Below are positions 25,187-47,467 of a stretch of DNA of 64,000 bases, piece after piece. How positions within the stretch are numbered: position 1 is the stretch's first letter; each line of letters begins with the position of its first letter. The notes below the pieces were generated by a model. It made no database searches. It worked only from the letters and a program-made list of their open reading frames with translations, and was not told where the DNA came from. The translations under genes and the position numbers were made by a program. The DNA is from Candidatus Nanopelagicales bacterium. Lineage in GTDB: Bacteria; Actinomycetota; Actinomycetes; S36-B12. The stretch is taken from NCBI GenBank assembly GCA_018402235.1, contig JAGYJJ010000004.1, forward strand, positions 889,256 through 953,255. The letters are read 5' to 3'.

Positions 25187-25876
25187 TTAGCGCACGCCCC
25201 GATGCAGCGCCACGATCCCGCCGCTGAGGTTTCGCCAGGCGACCTGACGCCAACCGGACTCGAGCATGTCTGTTGCCAGTGCGGCCTGATCGGGCCAGGA
25301 GCGGATCGACTCGGCCAGGTATTCGTAGGCATCGGGGTTGGAGGAGGTCTTGCGTGCGACTGCGGGTAGTGCGCCCATCAGGTAACGCGTGTACACCTCG
25401 CGGAAGGGCGCCCAGGTCGGTTGGGAGAACTCGCACACCGCGATTCGCCCGCCTGGCTTGGTAACACGCAGTAGCTCGCGCAGACCAGCGTGCCGATCGT
25501 GCACATTGCGCAGACCGAAGGAGATGGTCACAGCGTCAAAGGACCCATCGGCAAAGGGCAACGCCAAGCCGTCGCCTGCCACGAACGACATTCGGGGGTT
25601 GCGGTCATGGCCTACGCCCAGCATCCCGAGGGAGAAATCGCACGCGACCACGAAGGCTCCACCCGCCGCGATCGGCTCGCTGGAGGTCCCGGTTCCGGCA
25701 GCCAGGTCCAAAACGCGATCCCCTGGCTGAGCCGCTACGGCCTTCGTCACCTCTTTGCGCCACCGACGCGTTTGACCCATAGCCAACAGATCGTTGGTGA
25801 GGTCGTAGCGCGCCGCGACGTCGTCGAACATCGCCGCGACATCCTGCGGAGACTTGTCCAAACCTGCTCGGGCCAT
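25187..25876 (-). CDS. menG: Demethylmenaquinone methyltransferase
   Basis: 229 residues from ATG 25876 ([18 protein letters not shown]). SAM-binding motif I '[16 protein letters not shown]', post-motif acidic '[11 protein letters not shown]', and UbiE/MenG signatures '[13 protein letters not shown]' and '[14 protein letters not shown]'-like end ('[17 protein letters not shown]'). It methylates demethylmenaquinone to menaquinone, the last pathway step. An ATG 11 codons upstream gives a longer form; the chosen one fits homologues. Divergent from menF by 57 bases; upstream of and on the same strand as nuo, but the 179-base gap with its own promoter suggests separate control. Confidence 0.93.
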
Positions 25877-25933
25877 GGCTGCATGCTTGCACGCGAACAG
25901 GACATTCACCCGGCGGCCACCTACCCTGAGGCC

Positions 25934-27179
25934 GTGCCTGCCACCTACGAGTCATCCGATCAGCTGATCGCCACTACGCGTCCGCTGGAGGACATGGGGG
26001 ATCTGATCGCGCTGCTGCCGCCCGGCGACAACGTGTGCTGGGTGCGCCGCGGAGAGGGCCTCGTCGGATGGGGAGTTGCAGCCCGGCTACAGGTCCGCGG
26101 CGTGGAGCGCTTCTCGCGAACCCAGCGCTGGTGGTCGGAACTATGCGACCGGCTGACGATCGACGATTCGGTGAGTGTCCCTGGCACCGGCCCTATCGCA
26201 TTTGCTTCCTACGCCTTCGATCCGCAGGATGCGTCCGAAGTGGTGGTTCCTGCGGTCCTCGTTGGACAGCGCTCCGGGCAAAGCTGGATCACCGTGATTC
26301 ACCGACCTGGTGATGATTCACCGTCAGTGCCACTGCCGAACGTTGTGCCGACATCCACATCGGCACAGTGGCACGACGGTGCATTGAGTGCCCCGGAGTG
26401 GGAGAAGATCGTTGGCCGCGCCGTGGAGCGCATCAACTCTGGTGAACTCGACAAAGTGGTTCTCGCGCGTGATGTGGTGGCCGAAGTTCAAGGTGGCCTA
26501 GATAAGCGGATGCTCCTCACTCGATTGGCTCAGAGTTACCCGACGTGTTGGACCTTCGAAGTTGCAGGACTCGTCGGAGCAACGCCGGAACTACTCGTTC
26601 GCAGAACCGGCGATCTCGTCACCAGTCGAGTGCTGGCGGGAACCGTTCGACGGCGGGGCGATGCGCAGGCCGACGAAGGGCTCGCCCAGCAGTTGCTGGC
26701 AAGCGATAAGGACTTGGCCGAGCATGCGTACGCGGTTCGCTCGGTTGCCCGAGCCCTGGCCGCGCATTGCACCGATATGGATGTCCCGGAGAACCCCACG
26801 GTTCTCGAGCTTGCCAACGTGCAGCACTTGGCCACCGACGTGACCGGACGCCTTGCAGACGATGCACCCCTTCTGGCGCTACGCAGCATCCCTCCATCCG
26901 ACTGCGGCGGTCTGCGGAACACCCACCGAACGAGCGCTGGCGATGATCGCCGAGCTCGAGGGGATGTCGCGCGACAGGTATGCCGGACCCGTGGGCTGGT
27001 TTGATACGCGCGGCGACGGTGAATTCGGCATTGCGCTTCGGTGCGCTCATGTCGATGAGCAGGCCGGTCTAGTACGCGCATTCGCCGGCTGCGGGATTGT
27101 TTCTGGTTCAGACCCAGAACGTGAGCTCGCTGAATCGAATGCGAAATTGGTGCCGATCCGCGAGGCACTCACTACCTAG
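25934..27179 (+). CDS. menF: Isochorismate synthase, frameshifted
   Basis: About 414 residues after repair, from GTG 25934. The chorismate-binding domain spans the C-terminal two thirds: '[12 protein letters not shown]', '[17 protein letters not shown]', '[13 protein letters not shown]', '[13 protein letters not shown]', then in the second frame '[22 protein letters not shown]' region and '[19 protein letters not shown]'. The frames join at 26882, where one extra C must be dropped (LLAL to AASLHP). MenF converts chorismate to isochorismate, committing it to menaquinone; siderophore-type synthases are the alternative, but the surrounding men genes settle it. The stop overlaps the convergent TetR-ACT-GNAT gene by eight bases. 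An open stretch upstream of 25934 runs antisense to menG and is not family sequence. Confidence 0.9.
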
Positions 27180-28866
27180 ACAGTTGCAATCGGTAGGCCC
27201 GCGAACCTGAACTCAGATTGTCCGCCGGCTCCGATTCCCATCGCCCAGGTGGGTTGGACTCGGGCGTGGGCAACATGGCGCGCATGGCTTCGTTTCCACC
27301 CAGGACGTAGGCAACTACCTCGGTGAATCCCAAGCGCGGTGCGGCTTCGAGTAGATGGGCCAAAAGCAACCGTCCGATTCCCCTCCCGTGCCAGGAGTCT
27401 TCGACCAGTAATGCGATCTCACCAACAGATGGATCGTGCGGGCCGAGTGGGAATGCATTGCCGATAGCGATGACGTTCTCATCACTGGTCGTATCGCTCT
27501 CGGTGACCATGAGAGTCATGCCTCGGTGACCTCCAGAGATGCGCCTGAGGTTCTCTTCGCGCCAGGAGTTCTTGGGCGTGAAGTAACGGTGTAACAGGCT
27601 TTCCTGCGAGCAGCGTGAGTGCAGTGCTTCGACCGCTGTGGTGTCCTCTGGTCGGGCCAGACGGGTCACGATCTCAGAGCCATCAGCCAGTGAATCGCGC
27701 CAACCGAATCCCTCGGTGCCGCGCACAACCGTGACTGCATCAAGAAGTTGAAGCAGGGCTGAGGCTCGCGCATACTCACCGTTAGTGAAAGGCGCGGCCG
27801 CTCGTCGCAGCACCACATGCCTGTCGACCGTCCACTGCAAGCGTGCGGTGTTTGCCGAGGAATCATCACCCACGGATGCGTCGACCACCTCCCATGAATC
27901 GGCAAGCAGCAGATCCGCGGCAGCCCGCGGTGCGTAGTCCGGATGCGCAAGCAACTGGGTGCTCAGTTCAAGCACGCGCGCTGCAACGTCTTCGGTATCC
28001 GATGCTTCGCCACGCCCAACCACCACATCGGTGCCTACCGATCGAAGTGCATCGATGATGACAACGCGATTGATGGCATCGTCTGACGTGAGGATCAAAT
28101 CGACCAAGGAATACTCGCGAACATCCCCGGTAGCTGTTGCGGTGAGGCTCACTACCGATACCTCCAGCAAGGACAGCACCCGCGTCAATTGGGCAATCGC
28201 CCCCGGAGCGTTGGCGACGCTCACACGCGCCCGCCAGACGCGAGCCGTGGCAGGGACAGGTGTGATGCCAGCGTGGCTGTCAGCGACCAGCGCATCGATG
28301 ATGCGCGCGGTCAGTGACGTCCACGCACCGGTGTTGTGAGCACGCGGGACGATCGGTGCTAGCACGGCCAGCCCCACGCCTACCGCAAGCACGTGCAAGA
28401 CGGCGGCTTCATGGTCGGCGCGAGATTTCGAGGAGAGGTCCAGTTGCTTGAGCACTTCCTGCACGGCCGTCCACCGGCGTTCCACCCGCGCTCCCACAAG
28501 TGCGCGAAGGGGTTCGTCGTAGGGGGCTGCCGTAAGAGCCTGCAACTCCCTGGGATCCCATGCCGCGGTCGGATCGCCCAGTACCTGCTGTGCAGCAGCT
28601 AACAGGGCGGCCACGGCGGAAGCGGTCGGATCGTCGGCCTGTTTGCGCATCGCGTCGGCAACCGGCGCATCCGGCAGACGCTCAACTACCTCGCGCAGCA
28701 GGTCACTGCGGTGTTCCCCGACAGCACTCACCGAACGAAGATTCACATCAGCTGATTTCGCAATATCGTGTCGACTGACATTCACCACACCGTGCTGCGC
28801 GAAGAGTTCAGCAGCCGCAGCAATGATCTGCTCTCGACGCTCCGCACGCTCACGGTCGCTACTCAT
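27172..28866 (-). CDS. TetR-like HTH / ACT / GNAT acetyltransferase fusion
   Basis: 564 residues in three parts. Residues about 8-62 form a TetR-type HTH ('REQIIAAAAELFAQHGV...VSRHDIAKSADV'); 63-195 look like a helical TetR ligand domain. Residues 211-285 match an ACT fold ('RVSVANAPGAIAQLTRVLSL' with the Gly-Ala-Ile regulatory loop). Residues 398-560 are a GNAT domain with acetyl-CoA motif 'DSWHGRGIGRLLLAHLLE' (489-506). Inference: a ligand- or amino-acid-sensing regulator joined to an acetyltransferase. The HTH recognition region lacks the usual aromatic (VSAVGEHRSDLL instead of YHHFxSKxxLL), so DNA binding may be weakened. It follows menD by 41 bases on the same strand and may be in the menBCD unit. 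Target and ligand are unknown. Confidence 0.75.
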   Translation of the reverse strand: MSSDRERAERREQIIAAAAELFAQHGVVNVSRHDIAKSADVNLRSVSAVGEHRSDLLREVVERLPDAPVADAMRKQADDPTASAVAALLAAAQQVLGDPTAAWDPRELQALTAAPYDEPLRALVGARVERRWTAVQEVLKQLDLSSKSRADHEAAVLHVLAVGVGLAVLAPIVPRAHNTGAWTSLTARIIDALVADSHAGITPVPATARVWRARVSVANAPGAIAQLTRVLSLLEVSVVSLTATATGDVREYSLVDLILTSDDAINRVVIIDALRSVGTDVVVGRGEASDTEDVAARVLELSTQLLAHPDYAPRAAADLLLADSWEVVDASVGDDSSANTARLQWTVDRHVVLRRAAAPFTNGEYARASALLQLLDAVTVVRGTEGFGWRDSLADGSEIVTRLARPEDTTAVEALHSRCSQESLLHRYFTPKNSWREENLRRISGGHRGMTLMVTESDTTSDENVIAIGNAFPLGPHDPSVGEIALLVEDSWHGRGIGRLLLAHLLEAAPRLGFTEVVAYVLGGNEAMRAMLPTPESNPPGRWESEPADNLSSGSRAYRLQLSR

Positions 28867-28907: not shown

Positions 28908-30656
28908 TTATCCCTCGCCTATCGCTTGGCGCACCGCATCTTGAATGCTTCGCAAGGTAGCAGCCTCGATCGATCGCTCACAGGTGCGGATGACGATCAC
29001 GTGTACTCCATCGCCGAGGCGGTCATCTACAGCACTGCGCAGTGAATCGAGGCCCTCCACCGTGGCAACCGAGACCCCGTAGGCGGCGGACAACTCGTCA
29101 AGTCGAATACCAAGCGGAACTCCGAACACTCTCTCGAAGTAACGATCAAATACCGGTTCGCCCTGTTCGAGTGTGGAGAAGATGCCAGCACCATCGTTGT
29201 CGGCTACAACGATCACCAAATTCGGCCGGGACTCACCGACAGGGACGGCTAGCGCATTGGAGTCGTACCAAAATGCTTGATCGCCGAGCAACAGCACAGC
29301 CGGACCGCCACCGATCGACTGCTCGCCTACAGCTGCGCCCCATGCAGTCGAGACACATCCATCGATGCCGGAGGTGCCACGGTTACCGAGCACGCTCACT
29401 CCATTCAAGGATCGTCCAGCGAACGAGCCGATGTGCCGAACAACCGACGAGGACCCGAGAAACAACTGCCCGTCTTCAGGGACAGCATCGGCCACAACGC
29501 GCGCCACCTGCATGCCGGTCGGTACTCCAGTCTGCGACCCGAGCACGGTTTCCACCGCGGCCGCAGCAAGCAGATCGGCGCGTTCCCAATCCGCCCACCA
29601 CGTTGGGTCGTTCGGCGCGCTTTCCGGCGGCAGCGGCACAGACGCCACTACAAGATCAGCGCTGCGCGTCGGATCGCTCCACGCGGCACGCGTATCGACC
29701 GCCACGTGCATCTGAGATCGAGCGATCACTGACGTAAGGGATCGATACAAGCCGACCCGGCCCACCGTGATCACGAGATCGGGTACGTGCTCTGCGATGA
29801 ACGTATCGTCGGCGCACACGAGCGGCCCGTGCGCCAAACCCGTCTGCGAACCACTGGCTCGCCCTGATGGCTCGGAGATGACCGGCCAGCCGAGGGAGTC
29901 GCCCAGTTCATCGATGAGGTCGACGGAGTCGTCGTCGTCGTGATCTCCCACCACGATCAAGCCGCGCGCGGGCACAGTCGCGTTCTCGTCCAACAGCGCA
30001 AGTGCTTCGTCCAGCGGGACGCTCATGCCCGCAACCAACCGAGCATCAGCTGTCCAGGGTCGGGCCTCGGGCCGGCCATCCAACGATGGTGGCAGCGGCT
30101 GGAGCAGCTCGGGGCCCACTAACGGTGTGTCGAAAGGTGCATTCAGATGCACCGGTCCAGGATCAATCGAATCGGTGGCTCGGGCAACCAAGCGGGAGAC
30201 AGTCGAACGCCAATACCGATTCAATTCCGGATCTTCATGCGCGGTGTCCATGTCACATTCCGTCCGGACAAAGCCTGAGAAGATCCCCACCTGATCGATC
30301 GTCTGATTGGCGCCCACGTGACGCATGTGCGGGGGGCGATCGGTAGTGATCACCACCAAGGGAACTCGCGACTCGTGCGCTTCGACCACCGCGGGCAATA
30401 GATTCGCAACCGCAGTGCCGGAGGTAGTGATCACTGCTGCAGGCACCCCTGTTGCCTTTCCGATGCCTAGAGCGAGGAATCCCGCAACGCGCTCATCGAC
30501 GCGCACATGTCCGCGTATCTCGCCGCGTTCTTCTGCCGCGGCCACAGCAAGAGACAGTGGGGCCGACCGTGATCCCACACCGAGAACAACGTCCGTCACT
30601 CCACAACGGACCAGTTCGTCGACCATGACAAGCGCTTGGGCGATGGAAGGTTCCAC
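28908..30656 (-). CDS. menD: SEPHCHC synthase (MenD)
   Basis: 582 residues from GTG 30656 (VEPSIAQALVMVDELVRCG), four bases after the menC stop. 'DVVLGVGSRSAPLSLA', 'RVDERVAGFLALGIGKATG' with the catalytic Glu, 'TSGTAVANLLPAVVEAH' and 'ITTDRPPHMRHVGANQTIDQ' are MenD signatures; the TPP/Mg2+ region is 'LLGDQAFWYDSNAL' through 'VVADNDGAGIFSTLEQG'. It joins isochorismate and 2-oxoglutarate-derived succinic semialdehyde-TPP to make SEPHCHC. An open frame continues 35 codons upstream over menC without similarity. Second- or third-last gene of menB-menC-menD. Confidence 0.93.
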   Translation of the reverse strand: MEPSIAQALVMVDELVRCGVTDVVLGVGSRSAPLSLAVAAAEERGEIRGHVRVDERVAGFLALGIGKATGVPAAVITTSGTAVANLLPAVVEAHESRVPLVVITTDRPPHMRHVGANQTIDQVGIFSGFVRTECDMDTAHEDPELNRYWRSTVSRLVARATDSIDPGPVHLNAPFDTPLVGPELLQPLPPSLDGRPEARPWTADARLVAGMSVPLDEALALLDENATVPARGLIVVGDHDDDDSVDLIDELGDSLGWPVISEPSGRASGSQTGLAHGPLVCADDTFIAEHVPDLVITVGRVGLYRSLTSVIARSQMHVAVDTRAAWSDPTRSADLVVASVPLPPESAPNDPTWWADWERADLLAAAAVETVLGSQTGVPTGMQVARVVADAVPEDGQLFLGSSSVVRHIGSFAGRSLNGVSVLGNRGTSGIDGCVSTAWGAAVGEQSIGGGPAVLLLGDQAFWYDSNALAVPVGESRPNLVIVVADNDGAGIFSTLEQGEPVFDRYFERVFGVPLGIRLDELSAAYGVSVATVEGLDSLRSAVDDRLGDGVHVIVIRTCERSIEAATLRSIQDAVRQAIGEG

Positions 30657-30660
30657 GGGC

Positions 30661-31674
30661 TCAGCCTTCCACGCGTCGATGACTGGCGCTGCGCTCGTAG
30701 CTGGCATAGGCCGCTCCAAGGCGCTCGCGCCACCACGTTGCCCGTTCGTCGCTGCTGGCATCGGCAGCGGCCAGTAGCGAATCTAGGTCGGGTGAATACC
30801 TCCGTACCGCGATGCGGCCGTCGCGCGGCAGCACCGACGGATCGGTCAAATCGCGCTCGAAGAGTGTCCCGGTGCCCAGACCACTTGCCAAGGGCAGGTC
30901 TGCCAACGAAGCAGCGGCCGCGAGGGAGGTACTCAACCCCACTCCGGTGTCCAACGATCCACTCACCACCACGGGAACCCCCACGCTCTGGGCAACGCGC
31001 AACGTCGCGTGCGCACCACCGAGGGTCATGGGTTTGAGGATGGCGTAGTCCACGAGACCCGTGAGGTTCACACTTTCAGGATCACCCGACAACCGGATCA
31101 CTTCATCCGCAGCAACCGGAATATCGATTTCAGAACGTAGCCGCACCATGTCGTTCAGGTCGGCACACGGTTGTTCCACGTATTCGATTCCATAGGACCG
31201 CAACCGCCGAAGAGATGTGATGGCCTGATCCAAAGACCAGAGCGCATTGGCATCGAGGCGGATCTTCCCGTCAACGCCAGCACTATCGAGGGCATCGCGC
31301 ACGGCCACCACGCGCGCTTCATCGTCGGCAAGGGATCGCCCTACTTTCACTTTGATCGTGGAGCAACCGCATTCACCGATCGTTTCGCGCGCGAGCAAAC
31401 CTGCTCGACTCGAATCAACGTCGGGGATAATCGCGTTCACTTCGATCGAATCGCGAATCGACACCGGCCACGTGCCCCAGGAGGCTTCGATGGCTGCCCC
31501 GAGCCAGCGTCCAGCGCGCTCGTTGTCGTAGTCGTCGAACGGGGCGAACTCACCCCACCCGGAAGGCCCTTTGATGAGCATGCCTTCGCGAACGTGAAGA
31601 CCGCGAAAGGGAACGCGCAGCGGGACGGCGAAGGGAATAGCCCCAGCGAGGATTTCGTCGAGGGTGGGGGTCAC
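30661..31674 (-). CDS. menC: o-Succinylbenzoate synthase
   Basis: 337 residues, enolase superfamily. '[17 protein letters not shown]' contains the catalytic KxK lysine; metal ligands are D of '[10 protein letters not shown]', E of 'YVEQPCADL' and D of '[10 protein letters not shown]'; the second catalytic lysine is in '[12 protein letters not shown]'. It dehydrates SHCHC to o-succinylbenzoate. The sequence is of the shorter actinobacterial type. Start overlaps menB stop by four bases; menD follows after four bases. Confidence 0.92.
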
Positions 31675-32603
31675 GGTCGACGAGGGAACTGACCGAAGTC
31701 GGGTTGACGCTTTTCCTTGAAAGCATCCCGACCCTCCTGTGCTTCCTCGCTCATGTAAAACAGCAGCGTCGCATCTCCGGCCAACTGCTGAATACCAGCA
31801 AGGCCATCGTCCGCTGCGTTATGCGACGCCTTCAGCATCCGAAGGGCCAACGGCGACAACTCCAACATGTCCTTCGCCCATCGCACCGTCTCGATTTCCA
31901 AATCCTCGATCGGAACAACCGCGTTCACCAAACCCCAGTCGAAGGCCTGTTCAGCACCGTATTGGCGGCAGGTGTACCACACTTCACGCGACCGTTTTTG
32001 CCCAATCGTTCGCGCCAAAAGACCTGATCCGTATCCACCATCGAAAGACCCCACCTTCGGTCCTGTCTGACCGAATCGTGCGTTGTCCGCGGCGATACTC
32101 AGATCGCAAACAACGTGCAGGACGTGGCCACCTCCGATGGCATAGCCGGCAATCATCGCAATGACCGGTTTGGGTGTGCGCCGAATCTGTATTTGGAGGT
32201 CGAGCACATTTAGCCGTCCGATTCCCCTGCTCGCGACGTCGTCGTCGCCGATATAGCCATCATCACCTCGGATGACTTGATCCCCGCCCGAACAAAAGGC
32301 GAGGTCGCCTTGTCCTGTCAGGATGATCACGCCAATGGAATCATCGTCGCGCGCCCGGTTCATGGCGTCGGCCAGTTCGAACAGAGTTTGTGGCCGGAAG
32401 GCATTGCGCTTTTGCGGACGGTCGATCGTGATCTTCGCGATACCTGCATCCTTCCCGACAGAAATCTCGTAGCGGATATCGCGATACTCGCCTACCTGCT
32501 CCCAGGCGCACCCCGCCCGCATGGAGCTGTGCGCCGGGTCTTGCCATACCGGTGAATCTTCCGGAGCAACCGGCGGGAGGGGGTATCGCGTGCGGGTATC
32601 CAT
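31671..32603 (-). CDS. menB: 1,4-Dihydroxy-2-naphthoyl-CoA synthase
   Basis: 310 residues from ATG 32603 ([16 protein letters not shown]). Crotonase fold: '[15 protein letters not shown]' (oxyanion hole and the SGGDQ typical of MenB), '[21 protein letters not shown]', '[17 protein letters not shown]' and '[19 protein letters not shown]'. It cyclises OSB-CoA to DHNA-CoA. The 40-residue N-terminal stretch before the crotonase core is usual for actinobacterial MenB. First gene of menBCD, divergent from menE with only 43 bases between them, which must hold both promoters. Confidence 0.94.
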
Positions 32604-32646
32604 GCTGGCAACGCTACCGGCAGCCCCTACGCTCGGCACGGTGTCG

Positions 32647-33855
32647 ATGAGCGAGCGGTCAGACCATGCCACTGATCCCGCGCTCGCCATCATCGAAGTT
32701 CCCAATGGGCCTGCCAGTATCGATGCGCTGTGGGATCCGATCGCGAGCGCCTTGGACGGCGCAGCGCCTCTCGCGCTCATTCCGCAAGCCTCTTCCCTGA
32801 CACCGGAGGCCATGGTTCAGGGGATCCGAAGCGCGATTGCTCCCGCGTTGCCGGTGGGCAAGGACACGGCCATCATCTTGAGCACATCCGGGTCCACCGG
32901 GCAACCACGCGGGGTGTGCTTAACCAGCTCGGCACTCACGGTGTTTGCCGCGCACGTCAACAATATGGCCGGTGGTGATCCCACCTGGGTCTTAACCATC
33001 CCGCCAACATCCATCGGCGGCCTGAACGTCCTGATTCGAGCACGAGCGACCGGTCGGCAACCTGTGGCGGTTGCCAGCGTGGGTGGAGCCGACCGCTTTA
33101 CCGACGTCGGATTCGCTGAAGCAGTGAGTGCGGCCGCTGCCACAGGTCACCGTGTTGCGGTGTCTTTGGTGCCGGTGCAACTGCCGCGCTTACTCGAATC
33201 CACCGTGGGGCGACGCGCTTTGTCGGAGTGTTCGCTCATCTTGGTGGGAGGTGCTGCGTTAACCCCGCAGGCAGCCCGCGATTGCGCGAGTGCTGGGATC
33301 TCGATCACCACCACGTATGGGATGACCGAAACAAGTGGCGGCTGCGTGCTCGATGGCTACCCGCTGCCCGGTGTTGAGGTACGGCTCGATGAATCGGATG
33401 GACGCATATTCCTCGCCGGCCCCATGCTTGCCCAGGGCTACCGCGATGGTGCAAACGAGGCATTTGCCGATGGCTGGTTGCGAACCCAGGATCGTGGGCG
33501 CTGGATAGACGGTCGCCTCCACGTTCTGGGTCGACTCGACGATGTGGTCTTGGTGAACGGTGTGAACGTCGATCTCGTGGCTATCGAGGATCGAGCAAGC
33601 GATCATCCAGCGATCGAAGCTGCTATCGCGCTCGCAGTTCACAACGACAACGACGTTCACATCGAAGTGATCTTCATCGGACAGCCCATCACCCACGGCG
33701 ACCTTCGGCAGTGGATCGCGCAAACTCTCGGCTCGCCCGCGAGTCCCGCTGCGAGCCACCGGGTGGATTCTTTTGCCTTGACATCCAGTGGGAAGGTCGA
33801 CCGACGCAGCACCGCTGCACGTCTTGACCTCGATGTTGTCGAGGACGAACTGTGA
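32647..33855 (+). CDS. menE: o-Succinylbenzoate-CoA ligase
   Basis: 402 residues from ATG 32647 ([15 protein letters not shown]); a GTG two codons earlier is possible. AMP-binding P-loop '[15 protein letters not shown]', '[11 protein letters not shown]', '[16 protein letters not shown]' (A5) and '[20 protein letters not shown]' (A8), with the catalytic lysine of A10 in 'TSSGKVDRR'. It activates OSB to OSB-CoA via the acyl-adenylate. At about 400 residues it is shorter than the E. coli enzyme, common in actinobacteria. Its stop overlaps the GTG start of menA (GTGA). Confidence 0.93.
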
Positions 33856-46255: not shown

Positions 46256-47467
46256 TCACCAGCCCTCAGGATCTGGATCGAGGCCATGAAGCGGGAATAC
46301 CGACTCCCGGGTGGCCAAAATGGCGGCGTCGACGGGGTCGCTGGGGTTCCATCCTTGGACCAAGTCTCGTGGCCACGGGGTCGCGCCATCGGTCATCAGG
46401 ATCGGAGCAATGCGACCGAGTGCGTGGTGCACATACTCTGCGAAAGCCGGCGGCACCGGCGTTTGTGGATCGATGGGTCGGCCTTCCACCTCAGCCACCA
46501 GGTGCGTCCACGCACGCGGCACGACGTCGACCCATTCGTAGCCACCCCCGCCAACGCAGACCAGGCGTCCTTCGGCGTATTGATGCGCCCAGCGGTGCAC
46601 CGCCGAGAACCCCATCCGCTGACCGTCCACAGTTAGCGCCAAATGGGCAAGCGGATCTTCTACATGCGAGTCCACACCATTTTGCGCGACGATCACCTGC
46701 GGCCCGAACGCCTCGAGAATTTCGGGAACTACGCCGTGCAGAGCCCGCAGCCACCCTTGATCACTCGTCCCCGCGGGCAGCGCAATGTTGACCGCGCTCC
46801 CGGGCGCTTTCGGGCCGCCGGTCTCACCAGGAAAACCCGTGCCAGGGAATAGCGTTTGCGGGCTTTCGTGGATGGAGATGGTCAGCACCCGGGGTTCATT
46901 CCAAAAGATGGACTGGACGCCATCTCCGTGGTGAACATCGAGGTCGATGTACGCGATGCGCTCAGCTCCGTTGTCCAGCATCCACTGGATGGCTACTGCG
47001 ATGTCGTTATAAATGCAAAAGCCTGCAGCTCGGACGGCCATCGCGTGGTGCAGCCCTCCAGCGAGGTTGACCGCGTGAGCAGTCTGTCCTTGCCATACGG
47101 CCTGCGCAGCTGCCATCGATGCGCCGCAGACACGAGCCGACGCACGATGCATATTCGCGAACACGGGATCATCGCTGGTGCCCAGTCCTCGAGATGGATC
47201 GGGCACCGGCGGCTCACCACCTGCGGCTCGCACGGCCGCGATGTACTGGCGATCGTGCACCCGCTCCAAGATCTCGTCACTAACGGGGTGGATGTCGCCC
47301 ACAACATCGACGCCCCCACCTTCATTCAGCCCGAACTCTTCAATCAAACGCATCGCAAGTTGGACCCGAATCGGGGCAAGCGGATGGCCAGGCCCAAAGT
47401 CGTATTCCGCGAGGGCGTCGTCCCATACCAACGACGTGGTGCAACCGTGAGCTACCGGATCAGTCAT
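46256..47467 (-). CDS. AcuC-type class I deacetylase
   Basis: 403 residues. Histone-deacetylase-like arginase fold with 'GGLHHAMAVRAAGFCIYND' (His-His pair), 'YIDLDVHHGDGVQSIF' (zinc ligands Asp/His), 'TISIHESPQTLFPGTG' and 'VAQNGVDSHVEDPLAHL' (zinc Asp). AcuC deacetylates acetyl-CoA synthetase lysine in Bacillus, controlling acetate use; the target here is unknown. Start ATG/GTG at 47467 overlaps the proC stop by four bases, so ProC and AcuC are coupled. The GNAT domain at 27172-28866 is the only obvious protein-acetyltransferase candidate in the window. Confidence 0.9.
   Translation of the reverse strand: MTDPVAHGCTTSLVWDDALAEYDFGPGHPLAPIRVQLAMRLIEEFGLNEGGGVDVVGDIHPVSDEILERVHDRQYIAAVRAAGGEPPVPDPSRGLGTSDDPVFANMHRASARVCGASMAAAQAVWQGQTAHAVNLAGGLHHAMAVRAAGFCIYNDIAVAIQWMLDNGAERIAYIDLDVHHGDGVQSIFWNEPRVLTISIHESPQTLFPGTGFPGETGGPKAPGSAVNIALPAGTSDQGWLRALHGVVPEILEAFGPQVIVAQNGVDSHVEDPLAHLALTVDGQRMGFSAVHRWAHQYAEGRLVCVGGGGYEWVDVVPRAWTHLVAEVEGRPIDPQTPVPPAFAEYVHHALGRIAPILMTDGATPWPRDLVQGWNPSDPVDAAILATRESVFPLHGLDPDPEGW

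Follow-up and report, generated by a model that had tools for sequence, protein, structure and literature searches.

AAPatA enzymes (MaKat, SvePatA and AmiPatA among them) are the closest described relatives of the protein analysed here. They are actinobacterial proteins in which an ACT domain, a linker and a GNAT domain with a Pat-type catalytic glutamate follow one another. In vitro, 24 such ACT-GNAT proteins acetylated acetyl-CoA synthetase (Acs) and showed a response to Asn or Cys, and DxPGxL is the ACT signature of these characterised amino-acid-responsive enzymes (PMC6434083). Other Pat enzymes carry different partners. In the mycobacterial Pat proteins Rv0998 and MSMEG_5458, the sensor N-terminal to the GNAT domain is a cyclic-nucleotide domain, with neither an ACT nor a TetR domain, and in S. 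lividans Pat and E. coli PatZ the GNAT domain is fused to an acyl-CoA-synthetase-like (NDP-forming) region.

Lysine acetylation was first reported to control respiration in 2024, in B. subtilis, where acetylation of K471 by AcuA inactivates MenE and a sirtuin removes the acetyl group, and where a proline at position -6 is part of the acetylation motif (PMC11619455). AcuA is a different GNAT, encoded in the acu locus without any TetR or ACT fusion. The system described below resembles that of B. subtilis, with its AcuA and AcuC, in having a GNAT and a deacetylase of the AcuC type as well as a tie to menaquinone synthesis, a comparison of how the systems might work only. It lies in a stretch of 64,000 nucleotides from an actinobacterium (the window), in which a TetR module stands in front of an ACT-GNAT protein.

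Architecture and kinship of the TetR-ACT-GNAT protein

The TetR-ACT-GNAT gene (27172..28866, minus strand) encodes 564 residues from an ATG start without an internal stop. A sequence-only reading had described one frame joining a TetR-like helix-turn-helix (HTH) and ligand domain, an ACT domain and a GNAT acetyltransferase, and Pfam, AlphaFold modelling, fold searches and homology all uphold this description. As judged by sequence and model, the gene is an intact fusion of a TetR HTH with its helical domain, an ACT domain, a linker and a GNAT domain, in that order. A chance or decaying reading frame is ruled out by dN/dS and by full-length homologues, 19 of which align with the protein end to end. 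The full-length AlphaFold model has a mean pLDDT of 76 and a pTM of 0.54, with residues 179-204 at low confidence.

The HTH occupies residues 1-63 (28678..28866, minus strand). Pfam TetR_N matches residues 14-43 with an E-value of 2.7e-5 and 24.3 bits, just above the curated cut-off of 24, and the assignment is supported by the model helices and by relatives, most of which score 30-50 bits when tested, with E-values from 1e-7 to 3e-13 in distant ones. The recognition segment, VNLRSVSAVGEHRSDLL, is unusual, as had been remarked before. Residues 64-200 (28267..28677, minus strand) form a helical region resembling a TetR ligand domain, modelled with low confidence beyond about residue 140; the sequence profile matched the TetR regulator 2nx4 over profile positions 4-178.

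The ACT fold spans residues 207-287 (28006..28248, minus strand) and is followed by a linker domain common to ACT-GNAT proteins (residues 288-387; 27706..28005, minus strand), recognised by homology and in the model. When each domain was checked with HMMs, as the sequence-only reading had proposed, the HTH and GNAT domains passed their Pfam cut-offs, but the ACT domain (residues 214-255, E 7.5e-4, 19.7 bits) fell below its cut-off of 27 and is backed instead by AlphaFold, fold search and homology. Modelled separately with 46 relatives, the ACT-linker piece reached a pLDDT of 87.5 and matched 2nyi (Z 12.0), the AHAS regulatory subunit (11.1), homoserine dehydrogenase (10.6), SerB2 (10.1) and the aspartokinase ACT domain; the sequence profile likewise picked up homoserine dehydrogenase and aspartokinase over their ACT regions (E 5e-4 to 1e-3). 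Since ferredoxin-like folds, NikR and ribosomal protein S6 among them, come close to true ACT domains in score in this search, the ACT call rests also on the homology of residues ~205-535 to the actinobacterial ACT-GNAT proteins of the AAPatA family, which likewise place an ACT domain ahead of a GNAT domain in a single actinobacterial protein.

The GNAT domain (residues 388-564; 27175..27705, minus strand) matches Acetyltransf_1 over residues 433-531 (E 2.7e-8, 34.5 bits against a cut-off of 20.7) and is closest to Pat enzymes in both sequence and fold. Pat enzymes lead both fold rankings and the sequence-profile ranking; the best solved match, at Z 19.9 (rmsd 2.6, 161 aligned positions), is the GNAT domain of S. 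lividans Pat crystallised in complex with part of an acetyl-CoA synthetase, and Rv0998 and E. coli PatZ are also among the top fold matches. In the profile alignment, the catalytic E235 of Rv0998 falls on E483 (codon at 27418..27420, minus strand), which is invariant in the 19 homologues. One feature may fit less well: the acetyl-CoA-binding motif QxxGx(G/A) reads HGRGIG in the window protein, and QGxGLG or HGRGIG in its relatives. At E 1e-15, the family profile picked out no other Pat-like GNAT in the window's genome.

The protein departs from AAPatA in its N-terminal TetR module, in its place within a menaquinone (men) locus and in its ACT ligand motif. At the DxPGxL site (beta1-alpha1), its ACT domain reads NAPGAI, with the Gly kept and the Asp lost; across the window's family the Asp is lost in nearly all members and the Gly in most, while related proteins outside the family keep a DxPGxL-type motif. 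Sensing of an amino acid through the ACT domain, as suggested earlier, is weakened by this degradation of the signature.

Together, these comparisons suggest that the protein is probably a protein acetyltransferase; of the two activities that the sequence-only reading had offered, acetylation of a protein or of a small molecule, the Pat-type GNAT domain and its aligned catalytic Glu predict the former. We lean, less firmly, towards a Pat-type protein lysine acetyltransferase that is related to AAPatA, carries a TetR module in front and is tied to quinone or acyl-CoA metabolism. The same reading knew of no common protein with the full architecture. Its rarity holds, but ACT-GNAT without TetR is the characterised AAPatA family, so that two thirds of the architecture were already known and, on sequence grounds, the novelty is the TetR module. 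No published TetR-ACT-GNAT fusion was found in a literature search that covered mainly open-access papers and was judged by title and abstract.

Distribution of the gene and its place in the men locus

Of the 85 genomes in the window's family, 37 encode the full TetR-ACT-GNAT protein; within the same order it recurs in two genomes from a second family, and elsewhere in the class a few further genomes have it. At E 1e-60, a sample across the phylum yielded one match in 396 genomes, the window's own. Carriers include metagenome-assembled genomes, several of them under the name Candidatus Nanopelagicales, and the host group of the men-embedded gene consists of uncultured aquatic actinobacteria. 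Three records titled Bifidobacterium breve (L054, L057 and L062) hold a Nanopelagicales-type men locus, and their titles are probably wrong. In a tree of the ACT-GNAT part, all TetR-bearing proteins form one clade (support 100) beside AAPatA, and thus a single fusion event is the simplest account. One genome outside the order, G119, has two copies, on C270 (L088) and C209.

In the window, menD (28908..30761, minus strand; assigned from its sequence and its constant position within the men block) lies just upstream of the gene, with a gap of 41 bp. Both genes lie on the same strand, so the earlier description "beside menaquinone genes" was right and understated. Upstream of menD on that strand are menC (30661-31674) and menB (31671-32813, start codon uncertain); menE, for the AMP-forming o-succinylbenzoyl-CoA synthetase, lies at 32521..33855 on the plus strand. 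On the other side, menF (25490..27179, plus strand) is convergent with the gene. Its frame is broken near the 3' end in the assembly: conservation along a 504-aa frame ends near 26.86-26.9 kb, and the C-terminal part of the conserved sequence follows in another frame up to 27179, by a frameshift or an assembly error.

This placement is conserved. The block is arranged menA-menE / menB-menC-menD / menF / menG-nuoABC across genera, and the gene stands between menD and menF in every locus of the window's family with enough flank, and likewise in two genomes of family f7. Most genera have it on the strand of menD and two on that of menF, with close spacing in both orientations. Outside the order its neighbours vary and men genes are not nearby; in family f33, an AMP-binding (acyl-CoA synthetase-like) gene lies ~100 bp upstream (L091, 8-823), a plausible target. 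Twenty relatives without the gene retain the block, with menF next after menD and, in 18 of them, less than 0.9 kb between the two. Two of these relatives hold remnants between menD and menF, one with an internal deletion (L131, 6788-7163; G010) and one with an N-terminal piece split between frames (L140, 4622-4998; G016). The gene has thus been lost repeatedly from a block that stayed in place. Where it is present, all domains are under purifying selection, with a whole-gene dN/dS of 0.09 between the window and its nearest relative.

Candidate eraser, TetR module and possible targets

We then propose a mechanism for the Pat-type, AAPatA-related enzyme that we favour. It would acetylate acyl-CoA-making enzymes as a switch, and its expression with menBCD, or with menF in other genera, would couple acetylation to quinone supply. 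The conserved place between menD and menF in two orientations, purifying selection, the invariant E483 and the single TetR-bearing clade beside AAPatA are consistent with such a role; the repeated loss of the gene from men loci that look otherwise unaltered and the HGRGIG form of the CoA-binding motif speak against it.

A candidate eraser is encoded at 46256..47467 (minus strand), an AcuC-type deacetylase of the histone deacetylase family (PF00850, E 1.1e-81), whereas MenE acetylation in B. subtilis is reversed by a sirtuin (PMC11619455). The sequence-only reading had pointed to AcuC in the same window, and co-occurrence across the family genomes strengthens that hint of a link: 35 of 37 carriers and 22 of 41 non-carriers have AcuC (Fisher p 3e-5, with shared ancestry only partly removed). 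The association gives p 1e-4 under within-genus permutation and p 0.006 with genome size and completeness accounted for, and it weakens when only the more complete genomes are compared (p 0.004-0.02; within genus 0.01-0.02). In ten compared genomes AcuC lies 18-21 kb from the TetR-ACT-GNAT gene. Sirtuins showed no co-occurrence with the gene.

One possible role of the TetR part is DNA binding, a men promoter being one conceivable site, so that transcription and acetylation are controlled jointly and DNA binding is tied to acetylation or the acetyl-CoA state. TetR-family regulators share the HTH and helical domain with the window protein, which would be co-transcribed with men genes, judged by position. 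Where present, the HTH is strongly constrained, having the lowest dN of all domains (0.054; dN/dS 0.04, window against nearest relative), and family f7 shows a near-canonical recognition segment, TVTRHF, with strong TetR_N scores. However, the window protein differs from such regulators in its fusion to ACT-GNAT and its unusual recognition segment, and in three genera (L064, L068 and L074) the HTH is gone with the rest kept. A misplaced gene start does not account for this loss, as only ~75-110 bp separate the end of menD from the conserved LPFPP motif in these loci, against ~230 bp in the window, leaving no room for an HTH. The three do not group together in the ACT-GNAT tree, and therefore more than one HTH loss is likely; the acetyltransferase part appears to be the indispensable one. 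Loss of DNA binding, raised by the sequence-only reading, would fit the HTH deletions but is harder to square with the low dN of this domain in the window's lineage. No palindromic operator stood out above shuffles in the men regions or upstream of the gene, which is weak evidence. We regard a bifunctional regulator as the strongest competitor, though a rather unlikely one, and retain the Pat-type enzyme, for which the HTH losses count in favour.

As to its targets, the case for acyl-CoA synthetases appears evenly balanced. Among the AMP-forming ligases of the genome, some, including the acetyl-CoA synthetase, carry the motif PKTRSGK, and Acs is the safer guess for the window protein; MenE is a possibility in other genera. 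A dedicated MenE acetyltransferase throttling menaquinone synthesis directly would suit the operon context, the precedent of K471 in B. subtilis and the Leu-Pro kept at -7/-6 before the lysine in MenE of most carrier genera. In the window's genus, however, MenE lacks the -6 proline before its active-site lysine whether or not the gene is present (window, L042, L043 and L121-L124), which also tells against our favoured reading; the MenE acetylation motif did not covary with the presence of the gene, the gene is away from men genes outside the order, and MaKat did not acetylate E. coli MenE (PMC11619455). We consider a dedicated MenE enzyme unlikely.

GNAT folds are catalytically diverse, and phosphinothricin-type members rank behind the Pat enzymes among the fold matches, with lower Z scores; a small-molecule or peptide N-acetyltransferase is nevertheless improbable, given that Pat enzymes come first by both profile and structure and that the relationship to AAPatA is direct. 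Least probable of all is a dispensable hitchhiker on its way out of a conserved gene block, as its absence from many relatives, the two remnants and the HTH deletions might suggest, in view of a whole-gene dN/dS of 0.06-0.23 across eight pairs, its retention across genera in two orientations and its non-random association with AcuC.

Implications for Pat enzymes and menaquinone synthesis

It is tempting to speculate that the TetR domain of the favoured Pat-type enzyme senses a quinone-pathway or acyl-CoA metabolite, that acetylation controls Acs (and MenE in some genera) with AcuC as the eraser, and that respiration would be set by reversible lysine acetylation; we hold this extended model only tentatively, and consider it similarly doubtful that the men pathway itself is under the control of the protein. 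If the model is true, a TetR module has turned from a DNA-binding regulator into the sensor of an enzyme. The TetR module would extend the known set of sensors in Pat acetyltransferase fusions, namely the cyclic-nucleotide and ACT domains, and gene position would link a Pat-type enzyme to the synthesis of menaquinone (vitamin K2). The orthologues with and without the HTH offer a ready comparison for deciding between a TetR part that works on DNA and one that serves purely for sensing.
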